Assembly (NCBI GenBank): GCA_950022655.1
Contig: OX465580.1
Coordinates: 43,212,028-43,276,027 of the forward strand
Reading direction: 5' to 3'
Length of the DNA stretch: 64,000 nt
Source of the DNA: Alentia gelatinosa
Lineage: Eukaryota; Annelida; Polychaeta; Phyllodocida; Polynoidae
Shown here: one piece after another, positions 8,764-58,100 of the stretch
How the letters are laid out: every line of letters begins with the position of its first letter
Numbering within the stretch: position 1 is the stretch's first letter
The notes under the pieces: generated by a model
Database searches by the model: none
Told to the model about the DNA's origin: nothing
Seen by the model: the letters and a program-made list of their open reading frames with translations, nothing else
Translations under genes and position numbers: made by a program

Positions 8764-8999
8764 TTACAAGTCATTCCTGGAACTCACTTGCTTAGTTGCT
8801 AACGTTATCATCACATCTAGATCTCCTCTAGAGCCCAGACCCTCCTTTGCGGCAAAACATGCAGTAGGTTTGTATCTTAAAGCTGAGCTTCAGCAGACCA
8901 TTCACATTACATATTCTTGTTTTTTTAAATTTACTATTTGGTTTCATTTTGACAAGTGGTCAAGACTTGACACTGACTGTATGGTACTAACTTACTATT

Positions 9000-9168
9000 G
9001 TAAAACTGGATGAGGTTTAATCTTGGCCACCGTATTCCACGACTGGAGTTTGGCAAAGTGACTTCATGAGGCGAAGCCGAGTGAAGTCCGGATCCAAAAC
9101 TTCAGGAGTGGAATGCGGTGGCCAAGATCAAAACGAATCAGGTTTTGGTTTTATCCTACCCTATCTCC
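9000..9168. repeat. Foldback MITE-like element, copy 1
   Basis: Long imperfect palindrome. The left arm TCTTGGCCACCGTATTCCAC pairs with the right arm GTGGAATGCGGTGGCCAAGA around an inner hairpin with core GAGGCGAAGCCGAG. It is an inverted, diverged copy of 12730-12886. Confidence 0.8.
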
Positions 9169-10927: not shown

Positions 10928-11810
10928 CTACCCTGACCCCTACACATCCAACCCCATCTAGACTCCAGGTATACAACTATACCCACTTGTAGACCTCAGG
11001 TATACATCTAACCCAATGTAGACCTCAGGTATACCTCTAAATCAATGTAGACCTCAGGTATACATCCAACCCCATGTAGACCTCAGGTATACATCTAACC
11101 CCATCTAAACCCCACATATACATCTAACCACATGTAGACCTCAGGTATACATCTAACCCCATGTAGACCCCTGGTATACATCCAACCCCATCTAGACCCC
11201 AGCTATACAACTAACCACTTGAAGACCCCAGGTATACAACTATAACCACTTGTAAACTTCAGTTATACATCTAACCCTATGTAGACCTCAGGTATACATC
11301 TAAATCAATGTAGACCTCAAGTATACATCCAACCCCATGTAGACCTCAGGTATACATCCAACCCCATGTAGACCTCAGGTATACATTCAACCCCATGTAG
11401 ACCTCAGGTATACATCCAACCCCATGTAGACCTCAGGTATACATCTAACCCCATCTAGACCCCAGGTATACATCCAACCCCATCTAGACCCCAGCTATAC
11501 AATTAACCACTTGAAGACCCCAGGTATACAACTATAACCACTTGTAGACTTCAGGTATACATCTAACCCTATGTAGACCTCAGGTATACATCTAAATCAA
11601 TGTAGACCTCAAGTATACATCCAACCCCATGTAGACCTCAGGTATACATCCAACCCCATGTAGACCTCAGGTATACATTCAACCCCATGTAGACCTCAGG
11701 TATACATCCAACCCCATGTAGACCTCAGGTATACATCCAACCCCATGTAGACCTCAGGTATACATCTAAACAGATGTAGAACTCAGATATACATCAAACC
11801 AAATGTAGGC
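10928..11810. repeat. 29-bp minisatellite array, largest block
   Basis: About 30 copies of a 29-bp unit containing ATGTAGACCTCAGGTATACA followed by TC(T/C)AACCCC. Variants alternate between CTCAGG and CCCAGG. The same unit recurs, mostly inverted, at six other places up to 23.5 kb. The flank at about 10790-10927 (GGGTCCGCCGGCTTTACCGC) is repeated at 22045-22138. Confidence 0.95.
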
Positions 11811-12729: not shown

Positions 12730-12886
12730 CACAGGGGGTAGGATAAAATCAAAACCTTATTCGTTTCAATCTTGACTCCCGGAGTTTTGGCTCCGGATAT
12801 CACTCGGCTCTGCCTCGTGATATCACTATGCCAAACTCCAGTCGTCGCATATGGGAGCCAAGATTAAAACTCATCCGGTTTTACGA
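12730..12886. repeat. Foldback MITE-like element, copy 2
   Basis: Inverted copy of 9000-9168. The outer arms remain, and the central hairpin has stem GATATCA/TGATATC where copy 1 has GACTTCA/TGAAGTC, around a conserved loop of GAGGC(G/A)(A/G)AGCCGAG type. Confidence 0.75.
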
Positions 12887-12892
12887 TAGTTC

Positions 12893-13619: not shown

Positions 13620-14330
13620 TTCTCAAAACAATTAGTGAAACATGATTTACACTGCGAGGCCATGGGGTGATCTGCCCACTTTGCAACCAGCATTGTAGAT
13701 TAACTGCGGGAAGGAATTGAACCATCGTACAGTGATATATCATGAGCTTTTATAATATGGTAATAAATATTGTAGTACAAAACAACGATTACACTAGAGT
13801 ACAATTACTGGCTCTTTATTACGCCACAAACAGTTAAGCCTCAGGCGGCATACGTGGGTACTCAAAGGTGAGCCGTCAGTCAAGCAATGCGTGCAAGAGG
13901 TAAGTAACATATGATACAGGTATATAACCTCAACCTCCACGCTCCACCTTGGGGGGGGGGGGGGGGGGGCTGGGTCAGCCCTCCATGTACCCCGGGTCCT
14001 CGACGGGCGCTCTATGCAAGTATATCACTCCAACCTTTGTAAGTTACACACGGGTAACAAGGTACCGGGCGGTTGCCCTGGTAGTCGCCTCCTCCAAGTG
14101 GTTAGATGTATATCTGGGGTCTACATGGGGTTGGATGTAGACCTCAGGTCTACATGTATGGGGTTGGATGTATACCTGAGGGCTACATTGATTTAGATGC
14201 ATATATGAGCTCTACATTGGTTTAGATGTATACCTGAGGTCTACATGTGCTTTGATGTATACCTGAAGTCTACATGGAGTTGGATGTATACCTGAGGTCT
14301 ACATGAGGTTTTTTATTTGTAAACCTGAGG
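13620..14330. repeat. Composite minisatellite element, copy with LTR insertion
   Basis: Head module at 13620-13770 (AGTGAAACATGATTTACACT onward), then a sequence starting TTGTAGTACAAAACAACG that resembles the reversed LTR family (about 13772-14095), then the 29-bp array at 14096-14330. The other composites run straight from head to array, so the LTR-like part is an insertion. Confidence 0.65.
13950..13969. repeat. Poly-G tract
   Basis: Uninterrupted run of about 18 G, potentially quadruplex-forming and prone to sequencing error in length. Confidence 0.85.
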
Positions 14331-14501: not shown

Positions 14502-16225
14502 GACAATTATTGAAATAGTTAGTGAAACATGATTTACACTGCGGGGCCACGCGGTGATCTGCCCACTTTGCAACCAGCATTATATATAAACTGCGGGATG
14601 GAATTGAACCATCGTACAGTGATATATCATGTGCTTTTAAGGTAATAAATGTAGAAACACAGTAAAACATCCTTACGACAATATGGGGTTACAAGTATAC
14701 CTGAGGTCTACTTGGGGTTAGTTGTATAACTGGGGTCTACAAGTGGTTAGTTGTATACCTGGGGTCTAGATGGGGTTGGATGTATACCTTGGGTCTACAA
14801 GTGGTTAGTTGTATACCTGGGGTCTAGATGGGGTTGGGTGTATACCTGGGGTCTACAAGTGGTTAGTTGTATACCTGAGGTCTACATCGGGTTAGTTGAA
14901 GAACTGGGGTCTACAAGTGGTTAGTTATATACCTGAGGTCTACATGGGGTTGGATGTATACCTTAGGTCTACAAGTGGTTGGTTGTATACCTTGGGTCTA
15001 GATGGGGTTGGATGTATACCTGGGGGCTTCACGTGGTTAGCTGTATACCTAGGGTCTAGATGGGGTTGGATGTATACCTGGAGCCTACAAGTGGTTAGTT
15101 GTATACCTGGGGTCTAGATGGGGTTGGATGTATACCTGGGGTCTACACGTGGTTAGCTGTATACCTGGGGTCTGCAAGCGGGTTAGATGTGTGGTGGTCG
15201 CCGCCTGTCTAGCAGGTTGGATGACCCCTATCCGGAATACTAGTTCCAGGCAGGATCCCACCCTACGTTATCTACGTAGGTTGGTTCGGTTTTCGGTGAG
15301 TTTACACGGACCTAGTCACACACATGAATGTTTATTAACAACTACTTATATACTTATTTAATAGTCAAAATATAATCGACAGATGAATTGCATGCCTGAT
15401 GGGGCTATCTAGATGTACCTCATTGAACTGAAGTATAAGCATAAAAGGGTATAGTGGTAGACCGCTAAATGTACTTCATTGGCGAACTATATCAATAAAA
15501 AAAACCAAAAAAAACAAAAACAACACAGCACACACGTTTAATAAACAGGAATGTTTATTAACAACTACTTCCCAGAAAGATCTGGAAGATCTTTCCCACA
15601 GGTACAGTACCCCAGCACAACGTGCCAGGTAACGCTGGAGAGGCTTATCTAAAAGACTCGCCTAAAGACCAGGAAGGTTATGAGAACCCGCCTACAAAGT
15701 GAGGGCCCAAGGGTCTGTTCCGTATAAGAGACGCGCTAGGACAGCCTGTCGACCTACTGTGAACGCTGAGTATATATACCCAGCGTTACGTAATCCCAGT
15801 CTCCGCCGCGCCACTCTCGTGTGCGGCGTTGCCCGGAATCACTACACAGTAAGGAACGGCACGTCGCGCCTCCTTCCGTAGAACACACGAACACTGCTGG
15901 ACTCCCACCCCATTACAGATGTATACCTGGGGTCTAAAAGTGGTTAGTTGTTTACCTGGGTTCTAGATGGGGTTGGATGTATACCTGGGGTCTAGATGGG
16001 GTTAGATGTATACCTGAGGTCTACATGAGGTTGGATGTATACCTGAGGTCTACAAGCGGGTTAGATGTATACCTGAGGTCTACATGGTTACGAGTTGGGT
16101 TGTTTTCTTTTATTGTTGGTGATTCTCTCATCGGCTTTGGAGTCATTGAATCCTGTAAATATAACCATTGAAATATCTCAACTTATTAGTCGATGCATCA
16201 CTGAATACAAAAAAAATAAGTTTGA
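14502..16225. repeat. Composite minisatellite element interrupted by a solo LTR
   Basis: Head 14502-14655, 29-bp array 14685-15189 and 15918-16085, tail 16085-16225 (GTTACGAGTTGGGTTGTTTT onward). The same order occurs without interruption at 22633-23650. The array is split by the insertion at 15190-15917. The head contains, on the minus strand, a perfect tRNA T-arm-like hairpin GATGGTTCAATTCCATC. Confidence 0.85.
15190..15917 (-). mobile_element. Solo LTR-like insertion, 728 bp, 4-bp TSD GATG
   Basis: Starts TGTGGTGGTCGCC and ends CCCATTACA (TG...CA ends). It is flanked by GATG at 15186-15189 and 15918-15921. The paralogous array at about 23337-23350 shows the empty site (GGTTAGATGTATACCTGGGG). 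On the minus strand a TATATATA box (near 15775) precedes AATAAA signals (near 15550 and 15332), which suggests minus orientation. No internal coding region remains, so this is the usual product of LTR-LTR recombination. Confidence 0.75.
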
Positions 16226-16242
16226 ACTTTCACAGATCTTAT

Positions 16243-16391
16243 ACGGAAACTGGCTTACTGTCTTCATACGTCAAAAATATGCGGTGAAATTGTTGATCAC
16301 ATACATCCCGATACCATAGGCAGAGGGATGTATGTGATCAACAATTTTACCAAGTATTTTGACGAATGAAGACAGTCAACCTGTTTTCGTA
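16243..16391. repeat. Long hairpin, variable-stem family, copy A
   Basis: About 66-bp imperfect stem. Arm ends such as GTTGATCACATACATCCC pair with GGGATGTATGTGATCAAC. The loop is GATACCATAGGCAGA. Immediately downstream comes TATTATTATATACCT, and near 16520 its inverse AGGTATATAATA, with a shared word AGCGGGCAGTAT between them. Compare 20746-20891. Confidence 0.85.
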
Positions 16392-16540
16392 TTATTATAT
16401 ACCTAAAAATGGCGAAATTTTACCTGGTCATGTGATCACATACCCCATACGTCACAGTGTGGCGTACGGGTATAAATACGCCATGGGTAGGAGCGGGCAG
16501 TATGTGTGGGTTATACGGCCACAGGTATATAATAATCCAG
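16392..16540. repeat. Body of the hairpin element, copy A
   Basis: Bounded by TTATTATATACCT (about 16390) and AGGTATATAATAA (about 16523), a 13-bp inverted repeat. It contains AGCGGGCAGTAT. Probably one mobile unit together with the hairpin at 16243-16391. Nothing coding. Confidence 0.6.
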
Positions 16541-16764
16541 GTTATAGCACTGTTGTTTAATGAAATTTTGAAATAAATGCAGGATTATTCACCCTCTGCT
16601 CTACTTGATGCCAATTACAGTGCCATAATCTGTTCCTGCAGTTATCACAGTGTCACCTTCTGTAACAAGTCCATTGCAAGCTGATTGAAATGCCTTGCAT
16701 TGTGGCATTTATCAAACAGCTGTTTTGATCAATGGGAGGCTGTTAACTTTCCCTTTATTTTCCA

Positions 16765-17046
16765 TCATATACAAAGTACCCAATGAAAATGTATGGGGAC
16801 TCAGTAAACCACTACCCATGTCAGATACCATAACCATGGTATACAAATTCATATCTATGGTATACGGCCTCAAAGTCATTGTATGTATGAAAATAGTCCC
16901 TTTGTGTAAACGCCTCGGTCCGTACAAACGGTAAAATAGCATCTCGTTCTGTGACTTGTACAGCATGGTCAGGACGTTCTATATAATTATTTTCTATGTA
17001 TACCTGGGGTCTACATGGGGTTGGATGTAGACCTGTGGTCTACATG
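16765..17046. repeat. Dispersed repeats with a two-unit minisatellite
   Basis: Holds GTATGGGGACTCAGTAAACC (also at 12893-13045 inverted and 17090), a half copy (16905-16990) of the foldback at 17361-17515, and two 29-bp minisatellite units at 16996-17046. Confidence 0.6.
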
Positions 17047-17360
17047 CCATTAAATTTTTTATCCATTGTATACAGAGCCCCCATTGAAAATGTATGGGGA
17101 CTCAGTTAACCACTACCCATTGTATAAAACCTGTTTAAAAACTGTTACTGTGGTATACGGATTTAAACCTGTGGCTTACTATATATACCCATGCCGTATA
17201 TACTGTAAATAAGCACTGTTTTGGCATATGACGTAAAAATACTGTACGGACCAGTGGTCCGTACACTATTATACGGACCACCTAGCCATACACATTTTTC
17301 AAATTTTGGTTGTTAAGAAAAATGAAATTGATTTTTTCTTTAAATTTCGGGTATATAGTA

Positions 17361-17515
17361 AATATATAACGTCCAACCATGCTTGTACAAGCCACAGAAC
17401 TCGATGATAATTTACCGTTTGTACGGAACTCGGCGTAAACGCCTCGGTCCGTACAAACCGTAAATTAGCATCTCGTTCTGTGACTTGTACAGCATGGTCA
17501 GGACGTTCTATATAA
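17361..17515. repeat. Foldback palindrome, about 70-bp arms
   Basis: The left arm (ATAACGTCC...ACCATGCTTGTACAAG...CCGTTTGTACGGA) is nearly the reverse complement of the right arm (TCCGTACAAACCGTAAATT...CTTGTACAGCATGGT...GGACGTTCTATA). The spacer is only a few bases. A single arm recurs at 16905-16990 and, diverged, at 31515-31610. Confidence 0.85.
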
Positions 17516-17528
17516 TTACTGCCTCAAA

Positions 17529-17778
17529 ACGAGCCCTGCATAAATGCTAAAAATACTTTACCCTCTCCAAATTTTGCCAAAATCAAGCCTAACTACATGG
17601 CCAAATCAATAATCATACTCACATACACATTGTCAGAAGCAGGATTGCGATTAGCAGTGTTTCATTTAGCAGCGGATCACAGCAGCACAAGCAGGACGGT
17701 GGCAGGGCGCCAGAAAAGCTTGTAGAGGCCTTCGCGGCCGTTCGTATCACGTTTGAAAATGGCGGCTGTTGACATCCG
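17529..17778 (+). repeat. Segmental duplicate of the TMEM9 upstream region
   Basis: Direct copy of 24149-24400 at high identity with small indels. Shared words include CAAATCAATAATCATACTCA, GTCAGAAGCAGGATT, GCCAGAAAAGCTTGT and GGCCTTCGCGGCCGTTCGTA. Both copies keep AAAATGGCGGC, a YY1-type promoter motif (17756-17766 here). The frame open at 24200-24391 is broken here by an indel, which argues against coding. Confidence 0.85.
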
Positions 17779-18080
17779 CAGCGGTACGATTCACCATGCG
17801 TGTGTACCCCTGAGGTATACAACGCCAATGTAGCCCTGAGGTCTACTATGTTTTCAGCCAATCAGCAGGCAGTGCGCCTTGCACCCGGCCACATCACCTT
17901 CACTGAAGTTCTCTACACGCAATAAAGTAGTTCTCCCTTTACAGACTCAATTCATAACTAAAAATATTACAATCTGCCAATATATATAAAATAAACTTCT
18001 GCATTTATAGATTATTCAATCTTGATTTGTCAGTCTTTGATCTAACAGTTTCCTATATGGAATCACAATTCGCAGCTCTG
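17778..18080 (+). repeat. Dispersed repeat, copy 2 (related to 8465-8763)
   Basis: Direct diverged copy of 8465-8763, directly abutting the duplicated TMEM9-upstream segment. The first 70 bp resemble, inverted, the immediate upstream sequence of TMEM9 (24437-24500). Confidence 0.75.
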
Positions 18081-18691
18081 CCTAGTATTACAAGTACAAC
18101 AACATTGTCATTTCAGTTTATCACTAGCTTCTGTAGCATCAAAAACTTGAGCCTTGCTTTTAAAACAATCTGCTGCCTTCATAGCAATACATCATCATCG
18201 GTAGATTCCAGACTGCTCGACCCAGGCATTATATAGAGAAGGTCTGTCTATCCATGATAATTGATATAGCTAAGGTACGGTAGGTTGTTTACTAATTAGA
18301 TGGGGTATAGCAATTAGCATCGGCCGTTTTTGCGTTCGCGGCACCTATCGTCGTGGCGACCGAAACAAGTTAGTTTTTAATGTTATTTTTATAGATTAAT
18401 AATATAAGAAGGTGACTTTTCTGCTCCCCATTATCTAGCGCATAACCCATATCAAGGTACATACGTAGACAGTCCAATAAAATCCCAAATCCCATAGCCG
18501 AGTGAATATTCTGAAGCGCACCAAACATGATGGTGAACAGGGACTAAGACCAAGCACGAATATGTTTCTGATTTTATCTTAGCCTGGAAATATTCATCTC
18601 TTTATCACCTGTTGAGAACGAGTTACCGTTCTCGCAAGCCTGTTGAGAACGAGTTCGTAATGCTAAGCCTATGGACGTTTATACCAGGCTA

Positions 18692-19200
18692 AGATAATGT
18701 ATCTAACTCCATGTAGACCTCAGGTATACATCCAACCTCATGTAGACATTAGATATATATCTAGCTCCATGTAGATGTCAGGTACGCAGCTTACTTCATA
18801 TATGCCTGAGGTTCTGTGTATTCTAGAATAGCTACTAGAAACACTATACTATTATGTCTCCTAATAAATTATATGAAAAAAGCCTTGGTGTAAAAAAGAA
18901 GAGTAAATAACATAGATATATGAATGTCACAAATTCTTTATCCATACAATGTTATGACAGTTATGGCTCCTGGTATCTAGGTTCAATTCCTAGCCTGGTC
19001 TTCAATATTGCTGGTGCGAAAGGGAACAACTTGGCCAGTGGTTCCTACAGGAGTCATAACTTGCATCTAATCCACAGCAGAAGTTCTCGCAGTATTCTGA
19101 AATTGAATACTTTATTTCACATGTGTATCAAACCAGTATTGTTATTAATCTTACAAAGGATGTACATTATAATTACACACGACACAGGACTGCAATTATT
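18692..19200. repeat. Composite element: short 29-bp array plus tail
   Basis: About three minisatellite units, then a tail with AAAAAAGCCTTGG (about 18878) and a T-arm-like hairpin CTAGGTTCAATTCCTAG (18977-18993) inside a 12-bp inverted repeat TTATG(G/A)CTCCTG. It is paralogous to 20345-21810 and shows the empty site of the solo LTR found there. Confidence 0.75.
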
Positions 19201-19650
19201 ATTTCATTTCAATAAAAGCTTCACATTGAGCTGGTTAAAAAAATAAACATGAGTTTTTAAAAATCTAGACTAATCTCCCTATGTCTTGTGTGTTGGTGGA
19301 ATCAGCACTTTAATGGTGTATGATTTTCTATTACATCAGGCTTGTTTCTAAGTGTGTTTCAGGGTGTGTTGTGACCTATTTTTCTGAGTTGGGAAAGGCA
19401 ATTCGCAGTTGTGTCATGAATAACAAGCCAATATTTATAAACAGATACAAGTAAGTAAAAAACGCCACAACTTCACAACCGGTGTACTTTTTTGAAGACA
19501 GTTTATTGTATAAGATGTTTAATCACAAGAAAGACATTAGATGTCTGGACCTATAGTGAACGTTTCAGTGTTAGTAACCTTCTTCTGGACATAGAATGTC
19601 TTCATAAAGCTTAGACTTTCTCCTAGTTGTTGGTGTACTTTTTCTGTTGT

Positions 19651-19932
19651 TTTTTTTTGTTTTGGTAGTTTAACGTCCAATTTGTTCAATTAGACTTACT
19701 TTGGGTTTGATCGAATCTATGAGATGAATGTAGGAGAAATCCCACCCCTACACATTTACCGAGGTGAGAGTTCTTTTACTTCCCACACCACATAGACATG
19801 GTATGAGAAGGATTGGCCTTTGATATAGCAGTAAATCTACCACTGCTGGGGGGTGAAGGAGAAAAGTGGCTGCAGTGGGATCTGAATCAACAAAGTCCCA
19901 TGCTCCTTACCACTGAGCTATCTCCCTGCCCA
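19651..19932 (-). mobile_element. tRNA-derived SINE
   Basis: On the minus strand it starts GGCAGGGAGATAGCTCAG, with A box TAGCTCAGTGG followed by a B-box-like GATTCAGATCC, a unique body of about 200 bp, then GGACGTTAAACTACC and an A-rich end. Length, tRNA-like promoter and poly-A-like tail are typical of a pol III SINE. The tail sequence is a type I associate with mollusc and other lophotrochozoan SINEs. Confidence 0.8.
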
Positions 19933-20344
19933 CGCCGGTCGCTTTAGTTATGCTTGCGTGCAAGCATATCCAGTCTGCACCACGAGGAGGCGAGGCGACC
20001 AAGAGGGTGAACAGATTGGTAATTTCTGTCCACCCCAGCAGACCTGTTGGTGTACATATCATATAGATGTGTCATGGCTACGGTTCTCTGGCGTTGATTG
20101 AATATCGGAATGAATATTGAACAGTTTCTTTTTAAAAAGCACTGTATGATGGTTTGATTTCATCCTGTGGTTCACCAATACTGGTAATGCTGCTTGAAAA
20201 GTGGGCAGCTGACCACATGGCTCCGCATGGCTCCGCAGTGAAAATCAAATTTCACTCTTCCTTTCTATTACTCATCATGTTTTAAGTCATGATTCAATGC
20301 GAGTTACTGTCTTCCTATATAAACCCATAGCAAGGCACAAGCCT

Positions 20345-20740
20345 GAGCTATACATCTTATCACATGTACACAAGAGATATACATCTATCCATGTGTAGAC
20401 CTGAGGTATACATCTAACCCCATGTAGACCTGAGGTATACATCTAATCCCATGTAGACCTGAGGTAGACATTTAAAGCCATGTAGACCTGAGGTATACAT
20501 TTAAACCATATGTAGACCTGCGGTATACATTTAAACCATATGTAGACCTCAGGTATACGTCTAACCAAATGTAGACCTCAGGTATACATCTAACTATATG
20601 TAGACCTCAGGTATACATCTAACCACATACACTATACTCTAAATTATGTCCCCCAATAATTTAGATGAAAAAAGACTTGGGAGTTAAAAAGTAGAGTAAA
20701 TAGCACTAATATGTGAACATCACAAATGCTACATCTGTAC
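20345..20740. repeat. Composite element: 29-bp array plus tail (5' part)
   Basis: About ten minisatellite units (plus-strand ATGTAGACCTGAGGTATACA), then a tail with ATGTCCCCCAATAATTTAGA and AAAAAAGACTTGG. The tail resumes at 21585 after two insertions. Confidence 0.85.
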
Positions 20741-20745
20741 TATTA

Positions 20746-20891
20746 GGAAACATCCTTACTGTGGACGAAACGGTTCCTGTTCGAGGTCAGTCATTGATTT
20801 CATACTGCCTGATGCCATAGGCGGAAGGCAGTATGAATTCAAAGACTGGCCGAGAACAAGAACCGTTTCGCCTACAGTGAAGACGTTTGCT
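20746..20891. repeat. Long hairpin, variable-stem family, copy B
   Basis: About 65-bp stem. GACGAAACGGTTCCTGTTC pairs with GAACAAGAACCGTTTCGCC, and ATTTCATACTGCCT with AGGCAGTATGAATT. The loop GATGCCATAGGCGGA is nearly identical to the copy A loop, but most of the stem sequence is unrelated to copy A. Confidence 0.85.
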
Positions 20892-21040
20892 TATTATTAT
20901 ATACCTTAAATCGATGAAAAAACATTATTTTGATGACTTACTAAGTCACACTCACAGCGGGCACGCACATAATTATTACTGCACCCCTAGCAGCGGGCAG
21001 TATTTCATAGACATTTGCACACAGGTATATAATAAAATCA
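20892..21040. repeat. Body of the hairpin element, copy B
   Basis: Bounded by TTATTATATACCT (about 20893) and AGGTATATAATAA (about 21023), with AGCGGGCAGTAT between, as in copy A. The rest is largely diverged. Comparison with the empty paralogue near 18935-18950 indicates that hairpin and body inserted together (about 300 bp). Confidence 0.65.
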
Positions 21041-21051
21041 TGTTATGATAG

Positions 21052-21580
21052 TGTAGTATTAATAGGATTAATACTCCCGGAGGAGAGACTCTTGCCTCTG
21101 GCTAGCCGGAGGTGCCGGAGGGAGTGCCGGAGGCACCGGAGGAGGAGCGCGGAGCCTCCTCCTGGGGCCGCTAGGGGTCGCCCGGACCAGTAGTGACGTC
21201 ATGACAGCCTGGGGCGAGCCTCCTATAAAATTGGTGACTGACCCTCCGGGAGTCAGTCTGGACTGGGACTAGATGCGGTACACCTCCGGGAAACTTGGAC
21301 TGAGTAGCTGAGACCTCCGGCAGACCGGAGTGTTAGACGAAACCACCACGTACCTGACAGACGCAACGGGAGACGGGCGCGCCGTCGACCGGGAGACCAG
21401 AGGAGAACAGACTGAGAAACTCACTAACCTTAGATACAGGCGTAGCCTCCGGATCGTACTTCTTAGCCTCCGGCTCGTCCTTACCTTAGTCATACTTACC
21501 ATGTGCCGCATGAGGCTTGACTTGCTTACCTGAATAAACCTTTGTAAATATACTCCGGTGTGATCGTATTCTGTACTACA
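21052..21580 (+). mobile_element. Solo LTR, 529 bp, 4-bp TSD ATAG
   Basis: Starts TGTAGTATTAATAGG and ends TTCTGTACTACA, with ATAG on both sides (21048-21051, 21581-21584). A TATAAAA box at about 21225 and AATAAA at 21532 give U3-R-U5 order on the plus strand. The GC-rich interior repeats the word CTCCGG/CCGGAG many times. The paralogous locus at about 18940-18960 lacks it. Relatives lie at 11820 and about 13772. Confidence 0.85.
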
Positions 21581-22632: not shown

Positions 22633-23650
22633 CAATTATTGAAATAGTTAGTGAAACATGATTTACACTGCGGGGCCACGCGGTGATCTGCCCACTTTGC
22701 AACCAGCATTATATATAAACCGCGGGATGGAATTGAACCATCGTACAGTGATATATCATATGCTTCTACGGTAATAAATGTAGATATAACTGAGACATCC
22801 TTACAAGTACATGGGGTTAGAAGTATACCTGAGGTCTACATGGGGTTAGATGTATACCTGAGGTCTACATGGGGTTAGATGTATACCTGAGGTCTACATG
22901 GGGTTAGTTGTATACCTGGGGTCTACAAGTGTTTAGTTGTATACCTGAGGTCTACATGGGTCTAGATGTATACCTGAGGTCTACATGGGGTTAGATGTAT
23001 ACATGAGGTCTACATGGGGTTAGATGTATACCTGAGGTCTGCATGGGGCTAGATGTATACCTGAGGTCTACATGGGGTTAGATGTATACCTGAGGTCTGC
23101 ATGGGGCTAGATGTATACCTGAGGTCTACATGGGGTTAGATGTATACCTGAGGTCTGCATGGGGCTAGATGTATACCTGAGGTCTACATGGGGTTAGTTG
23201 TATACCTGGGGTCTACAAGTGTTTACGTGTATACCTGAGGTTTACATGGATCTAGATGTATACCTGAGGTCTACATTGGGTTGGATGTATACCTGGGGTC
23301 TACACATGGTTAGCTGTATACCTGGGGTCTACAAGCGGGTTAGATGTATACCTGGGGTCTACAAGTGGTTAGTTGTTTACCTGGGTTCTAGATGGGGTTG
23401 GATGTATACCTGAGGTCTAGATGGGGTTAGACGTATACCGGAGGTCTACATGAGGTTGGATGTATACCTGAGGTCTACAAGCGGGTTAGATGTATACCTG
23501 AGGTCTACATGGTTACGAGTTGTGTTGTTTTCTTTTATTGTTGGTGATTCTATCATCGGCTTTGGAGTCATTGAATCCTGTAAATATAACCATTTTTTGA
23601 AGAAATATATCAACTCAACTTATTAGTCGATGCATCACTGAATAAAAAAA
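22633..23650. repeat. Intact composite minisatellite element
   Basis: Reference copy: head 22633-22785, about 24 units of the 29-bp array at 22800-23515 (CCTGAGGTCTACATGGGGTT unit), tail 23515-23650 (GTTACGAGTTGTGTTGTTTT...ATTAGTCGATGCATCACTGA). The head carries the minus-strand T-arm-like GATGGTTCAATTCCATC. The layout (unique head, central minisatellite, unique tail) resembles non-autonomous Helentron-type elements, but no terminal motif was proved. Confidence 0.85.
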
Positions 23651-30600: not shown

Positions 30601-33600
30601 TAATGGACCATATTAGTTTTGACATCATTATTGATAGATGGTGTTCTGGTGTCAAACTTACAAAACTCTGCAAGGCACCGCTTTCGCATTGTGGCTTAGC
30701 AAGTCTGATACTTTCTAATAACAAATGTTTTCAGTAAAATGGGATTCACATTGAGACTCAGTGTGTAATTTTTTCTCTGTTTGGTTCTGGTTCTTTGATC
30801 AGTTTCCAATCGGAAATTTTTTTTTCACATTGAGACTCATGTGCTTGAGACTGGCTTACTTTATTATGTTATATATGTTATATGTTACATACTCATAGTA
30901 AATTAGTGGTGATGAAGGATATCTGCTAGCAAAATAAGGGTCATGAAGAAGCAATTGAAGGTATTATCTCTTGGGTAACGTTACTGTGGTGATTTTGGAG
31001 TTTGTTCAATGAATTTCATCAAAATAGTCATTCATCACAGCAACTGGCATTTACTTTACATTTTCTTCAGGCAGCTGTTGTTTTATCAGGGTTTGGTTGT
31101 TGAAAATATGTACAGTAAAACCCCGCTTAAGGAGACACCCTTCGTTCCGGGCCAAGTGTCCCCTTGTCCAAGTGGGTTCCTACAGTTTAATCTTTCAAAA
31201 AACAACACTCCTGCAATCACACCCACCATTCACACTCTCTGTGTGATTGTTATGTGTCTATGGACAGGAGGCCACACTTGGCCTTGTTAGTCCGAGTGAT
31301 GGCCTAAATATACAGCGCACATTAGGTGGCGTTGAACAGCAACACTTGTACCTATAGTGCATTTAATAAGATGTCTCTCCAAACACACTACCTCATATCT
31401 CCAGGAAAAATTGAAGTAGGGACACCAAATAAAAGGTGAAATGTAGGAAATAACTCCAGCATACAGAGGGTATGTAGATGTACCATATACCCTATTATAA
31501 TTCACGGTTCATACAGTACTCGGCATAAACGCCTCACTTTATAGGAACAGTAAATTATCACCTCATTTTGTAGCTTGCACAGCATAGTCAGGTCGTTCTA
31601 TATAAGTACTTACAAAACTAAGAAGCATTCAATTATTTCCGTTTTTCACGAGGATGTTTACATAAGTTCTGTGATTGTCAGTCTCTCACCCGCCTCTGTC
31701 GAATCAGAGAAGTATAGTAGGTCCATTGGTCAAATTTTTTTTGTATACGTTTATTCACTTCTGTTGTAATAACAGTGAAGATAATGTATTGTACATCTAG
31801 ATTCCGTCCACATGAATCAGTTGGAATTACAAAATGGTTAATGAATTGGATTAGTAGTGTTAAACTCAATGGTTCAGCGACTGTCTGTATAGTCTCAACT
31901 CCTTCTTAAATGAGCCTTTGTCACTTGCCTTCTGAACATGTTCTGTTAGATGGTTCCAGAGTACTATCCCCCTCTGAAATGGGCTTTTCTTATACGAACC
32001 TCTCTTATATGCTCGTTCCTTAGACCTAATTTTTGAGTTCGATCTAGTCCGTAGTTCCCTTTCGTCTAGTAAATCCCGCCTCTTAGACATTTTAAAGATA
32101 ATTACCAAGAGTTGTTCTATCCTCCGTTCTTTAAGCGTTGGAATATAGCACCTTTCATGTAATGTTACTGTCGATAGCCTGTCGTTCCAAGATCTCAATA
32201 TTGCCCTCATTGCACGGTTTTACAGCTGCTGTAGTTTATTAATTTCCCGTTGGCTTGACTATTCAAACAAAAAGCGTACACATGAACAAATAACTTATTG
32301 GCAAACCCCTCACAGTGATCTATATACTATAAAATACTTTTTGTATTAAAAGCACCGAAAAAATGCCAAGAATGTTACTAAAAGAGGGGGAGGCTCGAGA
32401 CGTCCCGCAAATGGACTCAAGGTGTCCACGTTTTCGCGCTGACAGGGGCCTCAAACGATAAAAGGCGCTGGGCGTCCATTTCCCAATATGTATATTCCCA
32501 GAATATGGCCAAATATGTATAAGATGCTTTAAAAAAGAAAGTATCAAAACATGGGAGTCTAAGTGGATTGTGGCACATGGCTAACATGTAATACTCTATT
32601 AAACTTGATTCTCAAAAGACGCATTTATATCTCTAGGCACAGTACCAGGACGTACGGTGTAAGTGCGTGTGTTCACCCCTAGCTCCACAGAATGGAACCA
32701 CCACAACCAAAAGTGTTTTCATCGGACAGTTCACAGAATCCAAGAATTGGTACGTATGAAACATTCATCGTCAGATCTAAATCTATCAGAGTGCTATTAC
32801 CTTACAATAAGTCAATATTTGAATTAAAAGCTCAAAATTTTAGATCATATTAAATATTCGGAATCCTGCATAGAAATTGCACTGAAATTTCATGAACTAA
32901 CAATTTATTACGTACCATTTTACAGTGAATGTTTGAACGTGGTCACACCTGCGACGCTGTGTCCCCGATGTGAGTGTAAATGGCAACACAGAAACACGGC
33001 GACTATCAAGGTAAGCTTATTCATTAATTTTGAAATTCAGTAACTTTGATTCCAGAACCTTTTTGTTTTGTTATCCTGGATAAAACTTACCCCCAAGAGC
33101 TGGTCTCAACATGCATCCAGCTTTAGTTCGTTGAATCATTACATCAATCTTTTCTTTTGGCACGTATTGCATGCAACGTATATACATATGGTGTGATATG
33201 CAAAAGCACAAAATTTGAAATTAAAACTTGAATTATGAATTCCAGTTATCCCCTATTTAGAGTGGCGTATTTAAAAACCTGAAGATGAATTGCGAATAAA
33301 TAAGATTTCTTTTTCAACTTTCTTCATTGTCCATTCATGTGTATGCATTTTCTTCATTTTCAGACTTTTTGTGGGTTTTTTTGTTTCATAGGCTCTTTCA
33401 CACAAAATAAAGAAGATTTGCTGTCAGCAGCACCATAACAGATATTCCAAGGATACTTTGAGAATGAGTTTTATAACTGTTACATAGTTAGAATGAAAAC
33501 ATTTTTGTATAGTCTGCATGCAGAAATGAAAAGAATAGAATACAAAAGAATCGTGTATCTATCGTAATTTTCATAGAGTCCTATTTCTGTTGCAGGTGGT

Positions 33601-52100: not shown

Positions 52101-55100
52101 CTATTTTTCCTGTTCAGTTACTATATATGCATTCACGAAAACCGACATTCAAAGCATATGACTTTCATTTTCCATTGGCAATATATATAGTGTGTCGCTT
52201 TGTAACAAACAAATCGATATTTAAGGATTTATCTCAGAAGGATCTTGGACATGGTTTAGAAAAAATAAGTAGATTCGAAAGCTGGCTCCAAACACGGAAA
52301 TACATAGCAGAAAAGTCTCTGTTCCATATTGATATATTCTAGCCTTTCTGCCTGCTGTTTTGTGTGTGTGGAGTTTTACCTTATTTATGGCCTGTGCTAA
52401 AACCTCAGTGCCCCGATGGCAGGATACCTCAACCGACCCGAGGAACCTCAGAATAAACTTGATGGGTCGCATGGAACCATCTGAAACAGGAAAGTCATTG
52501 ACTCATTAATATAGACAAGGAAATGTTATTTTCATCATAAGTGAAATATTGTGAAGCATATAAAATAAGTTTACAGTGAATAAGGTTGGATATAATTCAG
52601 CATTGCCCTTGGATGGACTGGTTGTCCAATTCTTTTTGAATGGTGGAAAGATATTCATCCAGAGACGACCGGGTAACTGCATGTTGGCAATCTAGGATTT
52701 GTATTTCTACAGTATCTCTACATCTAAACTCATTGGTATTTTAAGGTCGATTATTATAGGTTTGATGGACTAGTAGAATTTCAAGCATAGTTCATTACAG
52801 AACAGGGAGAGTAGGATGCGGAAATCAAAGGTTAACGTATTTGCATATGTATATAATTGTCTATGGGTACTCATGTGATGAAAGGCCCTAGTCAAATCTT
52901 TAAAATACTCACCATCCAACTCGAGAATGCTGAGATCGGTGGCATATGCAGATGGGAAAATGCCATACTTTGTAGTTCGCAGGTTGTATCCTGAAACAAA
53001 GCACATAGAGTTAAGCCTGACATAAGATATCGTATGAAGTACTAAAATAAACGAGACATGTATTCCGCGTTCCTACGTCTCCATATGCTTATAAGCCATA
53101 CAACGGTATATATTAGTTGAAGATTATTAATTTTGCTATGATTGTCATATTGTATAGTATAACATCTTAATTATTAAGTTTAGGCACTGAATGCTCGTAA
53201 TAAAATAAAGAACGGGGCCTCTATTCCAAGTTATGAAAAAGGTTTCCTTGTGATTTTTGTTATATGTATCCTTTCCGATATTATCATTAACGAAAGTATG
53301 ATAACAGGATAACGAGAGTTCCCTGAACTAATGTAAAGAACAACATTTTCAATCTGCCCTTGGAATATGACCGCAACCCAGCTGTACTGGTTCAAGGAAA
53401 TCTGCTTCCAACTATATCAGGTGACTTAATGCATTAAGTTAGCTTGATCTTAAAATGTCCATTGTGCCTATGTACATTTTCCTACAATGTGCATTTTGCT
53501 GTCCAATAGATAGGAGAAGCCGACTTTGGCTTTCTAACAGTATTGCTGGACTCCCTGTTAATGTATTGCGAGAGAGAAGTGGTAATGGATAAGGTCGGTG
53601 ACTGCTGTATGGAGATATAACATACACTAATTTTCCATTAGTATACTACTAAAAACCAAGCACTGTTAATGCCTACTGACTGACCTGCACACCAGAGGTC
53701 ATCGTCCTCACACTGCACGGCGATGGGGTCGCCTATCTCGATGAACAGTTCGTCAGAGTGACGCGGAATGAACTTGTGGCATCCTCTGTGAGTGGCGTCC
53801 AGGTCCTCCACTCCCAGTGACAGAGAGCTGCATATTGACGACCGCCGGTCTGCAATCACCACACCACAACTTAGTCACCATAATCATCACGGAGAACCAG
53901 GAGCTCGTTTAATGATTTAGGATCGTACATGTAGTCCCTTTTCTTTATGCCATAGAGACCCAGGGACGATGTTGGTCAACTTTATTCAACACTTATGGAC
54001 GACTTTATGGATGGCTAATACTGTCTTAGTGAACAGACTTATATATCATCAAACGATAACCCTAGTTCGAGTTACAGAAAAGGGTCTTCATGTACGATCC
54101 TAGATTATCAAATGGGCCTAAGGCATTGGCAAAAGAGAAGTTCGTTCATACATTGCAAGATGATTGTTAATTGAGAACCTATATCATTAATATGAGGTAG
54201 ATATCAGTGAGGGTTGTTGAAGATCAAGTTGGTGTTTCTTAAGCAGTCGTCTTAAAGTAGCCCTGCATGTGACACAAGCGGTATCAGATACAAAATAGGA
54301 TATCAATTTCTGAAGAGGTAGGTGCAGGGGATAAGGTATACCTGGAGGATGGATGTAGTGGAGGAGAAGATCTACAGTTATGGGAATTGGAAATTTGGGT
54401 TGGGACGGGTGGGACCGACATGCGTAAGCGGTAGGATTGATATTATTATTGTCCAGCAATGTAGAATCTGGAGGTCATCTAAAACTTTAATTTCATAGTC
54501 TCAAATTTATGAATATAGGTCATTTCTAACTTAAAACAACGAATACGAGAACGAAATTTGTTTACAAATACAAACATATTAAATGTGTGGACTAGATATA
54601 CGAGACACATTCGTGTTCAATAGACACAATCATAACGAGAACTTGCCTGCAGTTGCAATATCAAAGCTCTCTGCCCGAATAGGTCTACTTTGTTGTTTCG
54701 TCCTATGTTTCTCGTCCAGTGAGAAGTCCTCCCTAAAAACGCCATCATTACCGCCATTGGCACCAGCTCCAGCACCGCCGCCTCGTTGTGAGCCGCTCAT
54801 GAAGGACTCATCCAGGTGGCGTGGTGCTGCCCTCTGTGGGGTACGTCGGGGACTACTTGGTACGTCATCCATACAGTTTACGTCATAATCGCGGCTATCT
54901 CGCTTTAGTAGCGTCTCTCGTGCACTCTCCTCAGCCCTGACCTTGACCTCGCTGTCTCCTTGTGAGCCGATGGTGGAGGTGCTCATGGACATAATGTCTC
55001 TTTCCGACTCCGTCTTGGAAGCCGTGCTACGCTGACTTCCGCCGCTCGAGTGGCGGTTACGCGCGCACGGCTGCTCGAATTCCACATTGCTATCTGGAGA

Positions 55101-58100
55101 GGACTCGTCGCTCCGGGGACACGTTGGTGGTGCAATGTCACTGGTCAGCTTTAATGATGGATCTGCCTCACTGAGTTCGTCAGCAAGCGAACGGTCGACG
55201 CTACTCAGGGAACGTTGCAGAAACTCTGTCTCTGAAAGATGTTCACAGGAGTTTCAATTATATTGTTTGTAGAAAATATGCGCAACATCACCCAATTGGT
55301 ATATCAGCATAAAGTAAATGGAAATAGTCTGCGTATCGATCAGACTTTTGTCATCTTTCTCTGGAAATAAACGAATTTTGTTAAAATATGTATACCACTA
55401 GGTTATTCATTCGTGGTATGAACAAGACTAAATATTTTTCAGAATGTGAATTTCCTACTCCTTCAGAATCATCTGGTAACCGTTCTGACGATATGACAAT
55501 GTAATCATTCAGCTGTATACTGCGGGTAGAACCTCAAAGGTAATAAATAATTGACAGTTTCGTTAGGTATTCTGCCAATTCCAACAAAAAAGACAAAATT
55601 TGGCATGCTTACAAAGAGAAGATATACTGATAGCTCAACAGATACAAGACATTTAAATAGACGGATGTTTCCTAGAGCAAAGAAAGATGTTCCCGTATAT
55701 ACATTACACAGACGTCACCAAGGGTTTCAGAGTGCATTAATGAGAAAACGTAAATAGTGTTCTGTGTATGTACATCACAATCCTGCAATATTCACTAATT
55801 TCGAATATATCTGAATTAGTGAATATGACTTTTATGATTTTAGAACATCTGCATATGTCGAGCTCGCGACCACAATTAAACATAGGAGACCCTTGTTGCG
55901 GATTATTTCCCGCTCATTTAAATTAGGTTAAAAACTCGGATTCTATTGGTTTTCACACAAGACATACAGTGAGCAGATTGGCGATCGGTTTCAAACTGTG
56001 TACTGCCCCTGTCTGCGTGATATATGATCCAAGAAGAGATCTGAGGATCTCTCCTTGCTGAGGGAAAAGAGGTAACTTTTTAAAAGGAGAATAGGTTTCT
56101 TTCCCCTTTCTCCTATTATTTTTTTTTTTGGTGAGCCCTGGGGATCTACCTCCTAGGGTGATGTGGTAGGATTTATTTCTTTCGGTCAGAGGGGAGCAGT
56201 TTTCCATATCTTGGAAAAAATCTTTTGACGTGGCATTTCTTGATGGAGGGCTTCCCGGTTAGTCACATCTGCTATCTCGATAGCAGATATGGTTAACCGG
56301 GGAAACCCTCCATCAAGAAATAAACCTTTAATCTAAAACTAAAGATCATATTCTATGCGGAGGGTTTTTAGAACACTGAAAAGGACACATTTTCTTAATT
56401 CGCTTTATATAATTTCTAAAATTATTCTTTGGCAGTTGAGAATGAATATCAGAAACTATGATCTTCATTTGTGGTGACGTGCCTAGGAGGTGTTCAATTC
56501 GGATGTGTTCACCCATAGTTAACCAAATACACTGACTGACCAATCAATGGAGCTAAAACGACAAGTCAATTTTGAAATCATGAATACGAAACAGAACTCT
56601 CAACGTTTGATCACTGGTTTTATTGGAACATGTCTCTTAGTAAATAGATAATTGTCTCATGATATGTAGCAAGCCCAGCTACAGGGAAAGGGAAATGTAC
56701 CAGACTTCCTTTTCAGGTTTCATGCAATTACAAAGTAGAAGCTAGCTATGATAAGCTACACAGAAGGCCGATATGTCACAAGTATACTTTACAAAAAATG
56801 ATATTTTCTCGCCGGTCAAGATTTAGTTATAAGCATATGACAAACCTGGAGATTTAATCAGGGCATGCTCTTATAATATGCTGGCCTTGATGTGGCAGAA
56901 GAAAGGGTATCCAATAAACAGTTAGTATTAAAATGATTTCATGGCAGAATAGATTCACATTTAGCCAGCCATAGGAACTGCTTATAGATTACCGACAGTT
57001 TGAAATTCAAGGATGAATAAGGCCTCAGATTACCAATAAATATGACATGCACAGAATTCACACCGATATAAGAAGGATGAACTGAACAGGGTTACGGCAA
57101 CGAATATCAAAACGGAAGTAGTATTCGGAGGAGGTTGTCTACAAGGCGCATGCGTGCTGACCTTTGTTGTCCCTGACCTCGGTGAGGAGGTTACTCAGCT
57201 GGGTAAGAGAGCAACTCTTGAGCGCCCCACTAGCGGTCATGAAGGTTATTGTAGCAGCTGCTGCAAAAAGGAAAAACTCAATCTACATCCCAGTACTGAT
57301 CATTTAATGGCCGATCTTCAGTTTAGGAGCAGGACCACAGATTTGGTGGCCGGGAAAAGATTTCTGATATGTTGGTAAAGTCATAAATCCACACTGGAAT
57401 ATCGATAGCGCTAAGGAAGATGGTAATCGTTTCCATGCTAGACCGTAGATTACATCAGATATTAAGATGGTTGTCACAGAGTGAAAAGCCAATGCCTGCG
57501 GTGTTGGACGCCAGCTGCCGTACGAGTGATTCGCATTTAGCATCATGAGCAGATGGTATTGTAGGTCAATGAAACACAGTTCCTTTAACATTCCTCGACG
57601 CTACACTTATGGGATATGGCATAATTTGTTTTGTAATGCACGAGAAAAATACCCAATAAATTAGTCGGTTTTTCCGATGCTCTGCCGATAATCCATTTAT
57701 ACTACATGTGTATCGGGAATGTAACTTAGTCTAATCCCCTTCATGTGAAAATATATATATCTTCAGATGGAAAAGACTGTACTTGTAGTTCTTTATTTTA
57801 AATGTGCCTAGAACTAAAATAGACCCATAGCTATTAGGGCAATGAGTAAATTATTCCTGAAGCCTTTGGTATACGTATTGGTAAAGACTCGATTCAATAT
57901 AGGATCATACATCATTTAAAATCAAGAGACATTCAGTTTCAATTTACAGCTCAGCAGGGACAATTACAAAACTATACCATGATATTGATATCATCAAATT
58001 GATCATATGTTGAATAGAATGATTTTATGAAAAATGCAGTACCAACAATACCGAATGTTCACCGCTATCATTTCTATTAAGACTAGGTTAGTATGATATG

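Follow-up and report, generated by a model that had tools for sequence, protein, structure and literature searches.

Hairpin-ended units in the Alentia gelatinosa genome as probable non-autonomous CryptonA-type transposons

How can a long DNA hairpin keep its tip and its fold while the sequence of its stem is exchanged on both arms, and what kind of element would be built in this way? The question is raised by two units, A and B, in a window of 64,000 nucleotides (C2:43212028-43276027 of the 1.23 Gb host genome), which had initially been described as hairpins with a conserved loop and replaced stems.

Two units of one design and their copies

Unit A (~297 bp; 16240..16536, forward strand; perhaps 1-2 nt longer at the right), a probable non-autonomous CryptonA-type element, is delimited by its matches to the A consensus, Ah (16240-16391) and Am (16392-16536). 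It opens with a hairpin (16240-16391) of 65-70-nt arms and a 15-nt tip (GATACCATAGGCAGA, 16310-16324), directly adjoined by an inner inverted repeat (subTIR; TTATTATATACCT, 16392-16404), and carries near its right end the conserved word AGCGGGCAGTAT (16492-16503), in a region that aligns with the right end of the autonomous element L142, followed by an outer inverted repeat (AGGTATATAATAA, 16523-16535). Unit B (~298 bp; 20741..21038, forward strand; Bh 20741-20893, Bm 20894-21038) has the same design with a different stem and interior, viz., a hairpin (20741-20893) with the tip GATGCCATAGGCGGA (20811-20825), the subTIR (20894-20906), the conserved word near the right end (20992-21003), and the outer repeat (21023-21035), with the spacing between shared parts equal to that of A to within 1-2 nt. 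The shared start word GGAAAC (16245 in A, 20746 in B), the loop with its two differences, the 13-bp inverted pair, and the common word reported in the initial annotation are thus all in place, and the high self-complementarity that it noted in both stems is borne out by DNA folding, which is more favourable than that of shuffled sequences by about 12 standard deviations (z -12.0 for A and -11.9 for B).

The further claim that most of the two stems do not align holds as to low identity, and fails as to unrelatedness. Between A and B, the 5' arms have 32/65 identical positions without gaps and a gapped score reached by 0/500 shuffles; the 3' arms have 23-24/67 and a gapped score reached by 2/500. 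Because these gapped scores beat nearly all shuffles, the stems look like deeply diverged homologues and not like unrelated replaced sequence.

Exact matches to the loop number 364 in the 1.23 Gb genome as against none for the reversed pattern, and its recurrence is therefore not due to chance. We read a sample of 90 loop occurrences (88 genome loci and the two window copies), among which 25 are near-full hairpins of type A (mean 93.4% to consensus), 36 are of type B (mean 92.2%), and 29 are truncated or other, including three that resemble chance loops (L015, L024, and L029). Given these values, copies inside one family read as ordinary diverged repeats; stems aligning in this ordinary way, the outcome that was to speak against an exchanged-stem family, are thus found within the families (25 A-type, 36 B-type) and not between them. 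Two exact pattern matches in bacterial MAGs (L001, L002) were taken as chance and left out of all counts, and viral contigs searched with two patterns gave no match. Ten further loci (L096-L105) stand outside the 90 and were used in the flip count and the BLAST-based family consensuses, L096 also in the analysis of autonomous elements. The non-autonomous families comprise thousands of copies. Both ends are present in 37 of the 90 occurrences, from which the limits of the unit were defined: the left end is TAT, 5 nt before GGAAAC, and the right end lies at AGGTATATAATAA or 2 nt past it, both slightly outside the bounds first drawn, for an overall layout of TAT, hairpin, inner inverted repeat, about 120 bp, outer inverted repeat, and ATAA.

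Other units of these families are present in the window. A C-family hairpin with subTIR (8994..9161, forward strand) forms a 65/15/65 inverted repeat, the unit's right end not being recognised here; a second C-family hairpin (12736..12890, reverse strand) is 79% identical to it, the family being defined from 24 near-full hairpins. A D9-family unit (17175..17514) and two D9 fragments (16907..16985 and 31518..31604) lie on the reverse strand. A 29-bp satellite (AGATGTATACCTGAGGTCTACATGGGGTT-like) forms arrays of both orientations at 10944-11808, 14100-14310, 14683-15190, 15917-16087, 18701-18775, 20342-20628, and 22808-23512; units A and B start 153 bp and 113 bp, respectively, past the end of such an array, and the 7-mer TATACCT is common to the satellite and the A/B inverted repeat, perhaps by chance. 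A 206-aa open stretch (54630-55250, reverse strand) has three homologues, all unnamed (best E 3e-43), and no Pfam domain; it is probably a host gene exon.

Insertion sites and autonomous partners

A paralogous copy of the flank of B that lacks B (18841..18961, forward strand; ~77% alike) provides an empty site near TAC^A, exact to a few nucleotides only, and to within that limit there is no target-site duplication for B. Another insertion to the right of B (21052-21578), with TGTAGTA/TACTACA ends and an ATAG-type duplication by eye, is absent from the paralogue at 18959. Duplications are likewise lacking in family C, as seen in nested insertions (L020, L088, and L124) and 20 units. Sites that contain TA are preferred as targets, TAY^ in C and TAN^ in A/B; one set of flank logos was set aside, because hairpin and inner-repeat bases, read from the opposite strand, had entered it. 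Spanning empty sites for A/B were sought among the genome loci retrieved at that stage, and none was found. A guide pairing of the hairpin foot with the target fits B (TAA) and C (TAC), fails for A, and was dropped.

Exact head-to-tail joins occur at L019, L051, and L078; they agree with a circular intermediate but are no proof of it. Integrons, too, carry their units in head-to-tail arrays. The arrangements at L025 (a solo hairpin), L040 (a hairpin with two modules), and L052 (hairpin-hairpin-module) suggest that either inverted repeat, inner or outer, can act as the end of a unit. At L073 (806-1383), positions 82-139 of the A module recur in tandem about nine times with a 60-bp period, a satellite growing from a non-autonomous Crypton.

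Partners of ~3.2-3.5 kb have a recombinase gene between such hairpin and inverted-repeat parts. The motifs of R, HxxR, and Y type in L142, L140, and L136 we take to be those of a tyrosine recombinase. ORF stretches of L142, L140, L135, L139, and L143 match PF12012 (E 1.9e-30 to 3e-16), by which DUF3504 was recognised, and PF00589 (E 2.2e-15 to 4.8e-14), while a sixth stretch (L141, N-terminal part) has only a sub-cut-off match to QRICH1. Both ends are common to the non-autonomous A and the autonomous L142, and other D9 units likewise match both ends of the autonomous L152. Unit B aligns with L139 in two stretches, one of 63 bp (77.8%) that covers the base of the hairpin and the inner repeat, the other of 43 bp (79.1%) close to the right end, the L139 hairpin itself being replaced by an AT repeat. 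Unit B also aligns with the right end of L151, over 69 bp at 76.8%. A further hairpin family, with the tip CTGAGCTCTACGAGCTCAG and no G.A node, occurs at an autonomous Crypton after an A unit (L146+L096); GGGGCAGTAT words flank this hairpin at the left and make up a tandem array at its right, and the hairpin may sit inside the array. L074 is followed, 2 kb downstream, by a Penelope-like reading frame, which was taken as a coincidence, since the L074 module starts like that of B (by eye); reading frames at L094 (2048-2551 and 5520-6202) presumably resemble a Penelope-like reverse transcriptase.

Constraint on the hairpin

In 30 B and 24 A hairpins, hand-picked and including four A rows that are neighbouring hairpins without the exact loop, compensatory changes between the arms lie far above shuffled and slid controls. 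Tandem G.A mismatches stand at fixed places in most families despite very different stems, and among family-consensus mismatches G.A and G.T are far above T.C and A.C. These three observations uphold the initial proposal that structure is kept while sequence is replaced, through attC-like selection on the fold. In the four complete autonomous cases with G.A nodes (L142, L140, L147+L136, and L152), the nodes lie on the strand complementary to the recombinase mRNA. From this analysis, this group of animal Cryptons may transpose via a folded single DNA strand, with the CryptonA recombinase reading the shape of the hairpin, its tip, and the tandem G.A nodes much as IntI reads attC, a proposal to which we would give slightly less than an even chance.

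It is rather unlikely, though worth weighing, that the hairpin instead acts double-stranded, as a palindrome or cruciform that clusters sites for the recombinase or an accessory protein and stays paired since half-sites must match. PMC3212892 gives typical tyrosine-recombinase sites as two inverted repeats of 11-13 bp, 6-8 bp apart, which suits such a function, as do the palindromic arms and the short words around the mid-stem node common to families C and F; but stems of different families have little else in common, the G.A nodes interrupt the palindrome at fixed places, and the excess of G.A and G.T over T.C and A.C is relevant only to a folded strand.

We consider it unlikely that the hairpin works as RNA, whether as a transcript that is structured or yields dsRNA or as a structure for priming. 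While G.U and sheared G.A pairs would also suit RNA, the strand with the nodes is, in the four autonomous cases just named, not that of the recombinase mRNA but its complement, a G.U bias is absent in single copies, and the A and B consensus ends have no poly-A tail. A lax Rfam search does place miRNA models on the hairpins, all below gathering scores: at gathering cut-offs the whole window yields nothing, and the 14 sub-threshold rows in 16000-21200 are mostly such models.

Still less probable is a likeness of the arms maintained through copying of one from the other, by template switching or gene conversion, in place of selection; copying was the other option of the initial annotation. The tip is flipped in three of the 78 judgeable A/B hairpins (L053, L059, and L063; over 100 occurrences, 75 same, three flipped, and 22 not callable), and arm-arm exchange therefore happens occasionally. 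By eye L119, too, has its tip inverted relative to the stem base; in all four loci the tip runs opposite to stem base and module, as would follow from recombination between the arms. Double changes found in at most two copies also exceed shuffles. Against copying as the general cause, consensus mismatches persist family-wide, restored double changes private to a single copy are no more numerous than shuffles can give (A 8, shuffled mean 3.9, maximum 10; B 8, mean 6.1, maximum 12), and copying would not predict strand-biased mismatches.

Relation to known systems and a possible mechanism

We take A and B, with a probability of about 0.9, to be ~300 bp non-autonomous derivatives of a large group of animal Cryptons (CryptonA), a class of DNA transposon that a tyrosine recombinase moves; this reading covers the hairpin end, inverted-repeat pair, recombinase partners, lack of duplication, preference for TA-containing sites, compensatory hairpin evolution, and strand-biased mismatches. 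The initial statement that no named eukaryotic family has this design is thereby revised as to the family; as to the hairpin end itself, we found no earlier report among the listed matches to literature searches combining Crypton with hairpin, attC, or palindrome (by title and abstract start; Repbase and most subscription papers outside this scope), and literal motif searches of the literature, judged by title and abstract start, returned no report of such a repeat. In Kojima and Jurka (2011; PMC3212892), the CryptonA elements of animals similarly have a tyrosine recombinase with DUF3504, no target-site duplication where resolved, and non-autonomous copies that share ends with and outnumber the autonomous ones. 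Animal Cryptons are described there as without terminal repeats, a reported trait and not a defining one, whereas one end of the present elements is a 65-70-bp hairpin, in most cases with G.A nodes, and an inverted repeat of 11-14 bp has its partner at the other end.

It is very improbable that the elements are instead Helentrons/HINEs or Helitron2, which combine subterminal inverted repeats with a 3' palindrome. As described (PMC4067079, PMC7492417, PMC3627910), those ends share asymmetric short inverted repeats, an end palindrome, and usually no target-site duplication with ours, and compensatory changes are noted in Helitron2; read on the other strand, the part order and the 13-bp inverted repeats fit as well (PMC4067079, PMC3627910), as do the tandem copies and the internal tandem repeats of L073. 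However, theirs is a short palindrome with a T^T target and a RepHel enzyme, whereas our hairpin has 65-70 bp, not 5-10, insertion is at TAY^ in family C and at TAN^ in A/B, there is a Crypton partner whose ends match, and about 10 kb to either side of the single RepHel locus (from three initial candidates) gives no match to any of the eight family hairpins. That locus, the only one with Helitron_like_N (PF14214; G000:C7:36825292-36825621; L091-L093), has helicase-like frames interrupted by another repeat, and an unrelated long palindrome lies near 8,720 of L093. REP/BIME elements with TnpAREP are also high-copy hairpins with variable stems, a conserved two-by-two mismatch, and strand-specific recognition, as given in PMC8266576, the only paper to which broader literature searches pointed, but those of E. 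coli have about 29-37 nt and an HUH Y1 enzyme, and an IS200/IS605- or REP-like origin can practically be dismissed, with a tyrosine-recombinase partner found and no match to PF01797 (Y1_Tnp) in this genome (5/14 controls positive).

The folded-strand transposition proposed above finds its closest likeness in the folded recombination sites of integrons, which the hairpin-ended Crypton design resembles. In PMC2727003, attC/IntI likewise pairs a tyrosine recombinase with a palindromic site whose structure is kept, whose sequence is poorly kept, and whose unpaired or extrahelical bases mark the strand; the attC-type trait found here is a folded hairpin with a variable stem and conserved strand-marking unpaired bases. 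The present system differs in its eukaryotic genome, CryptonA recombinase, longer stem, and scattered insertion, and single-strand use is here our proposal. The enzyme would recognise the folded single strand bearing the G.A pairs, i.e., that complementary to the recombinase mRNA, by its shape and tip and not by stem sequence, as IntI does with attC; the element would leave its site as a circle and be joined to TA-type targets, after which each inserted copy would decay neutrally. In source lineages the hairpin evolves by compensatory change. The conserved loop with an exchanged stem would then arise because the stem is free to change provided that both arms change together.

These results bear on how the ends of animal Cryptons are defined and how the elements move: ends, target preference, high-copy non-autonomous families, and enzyme are now linked, and the strand-marked hairpin is a proposed, testable recognition element. 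If the proposal is true, integron recombination would have a counterpart in eukaryotes, and the free exchange of stems among families with different combinations of tips and inverted repeats would be explained; an enzyme working on the folded strand would offer a fast-evolving, shape-constrained DNA site for study and possibly a tool.
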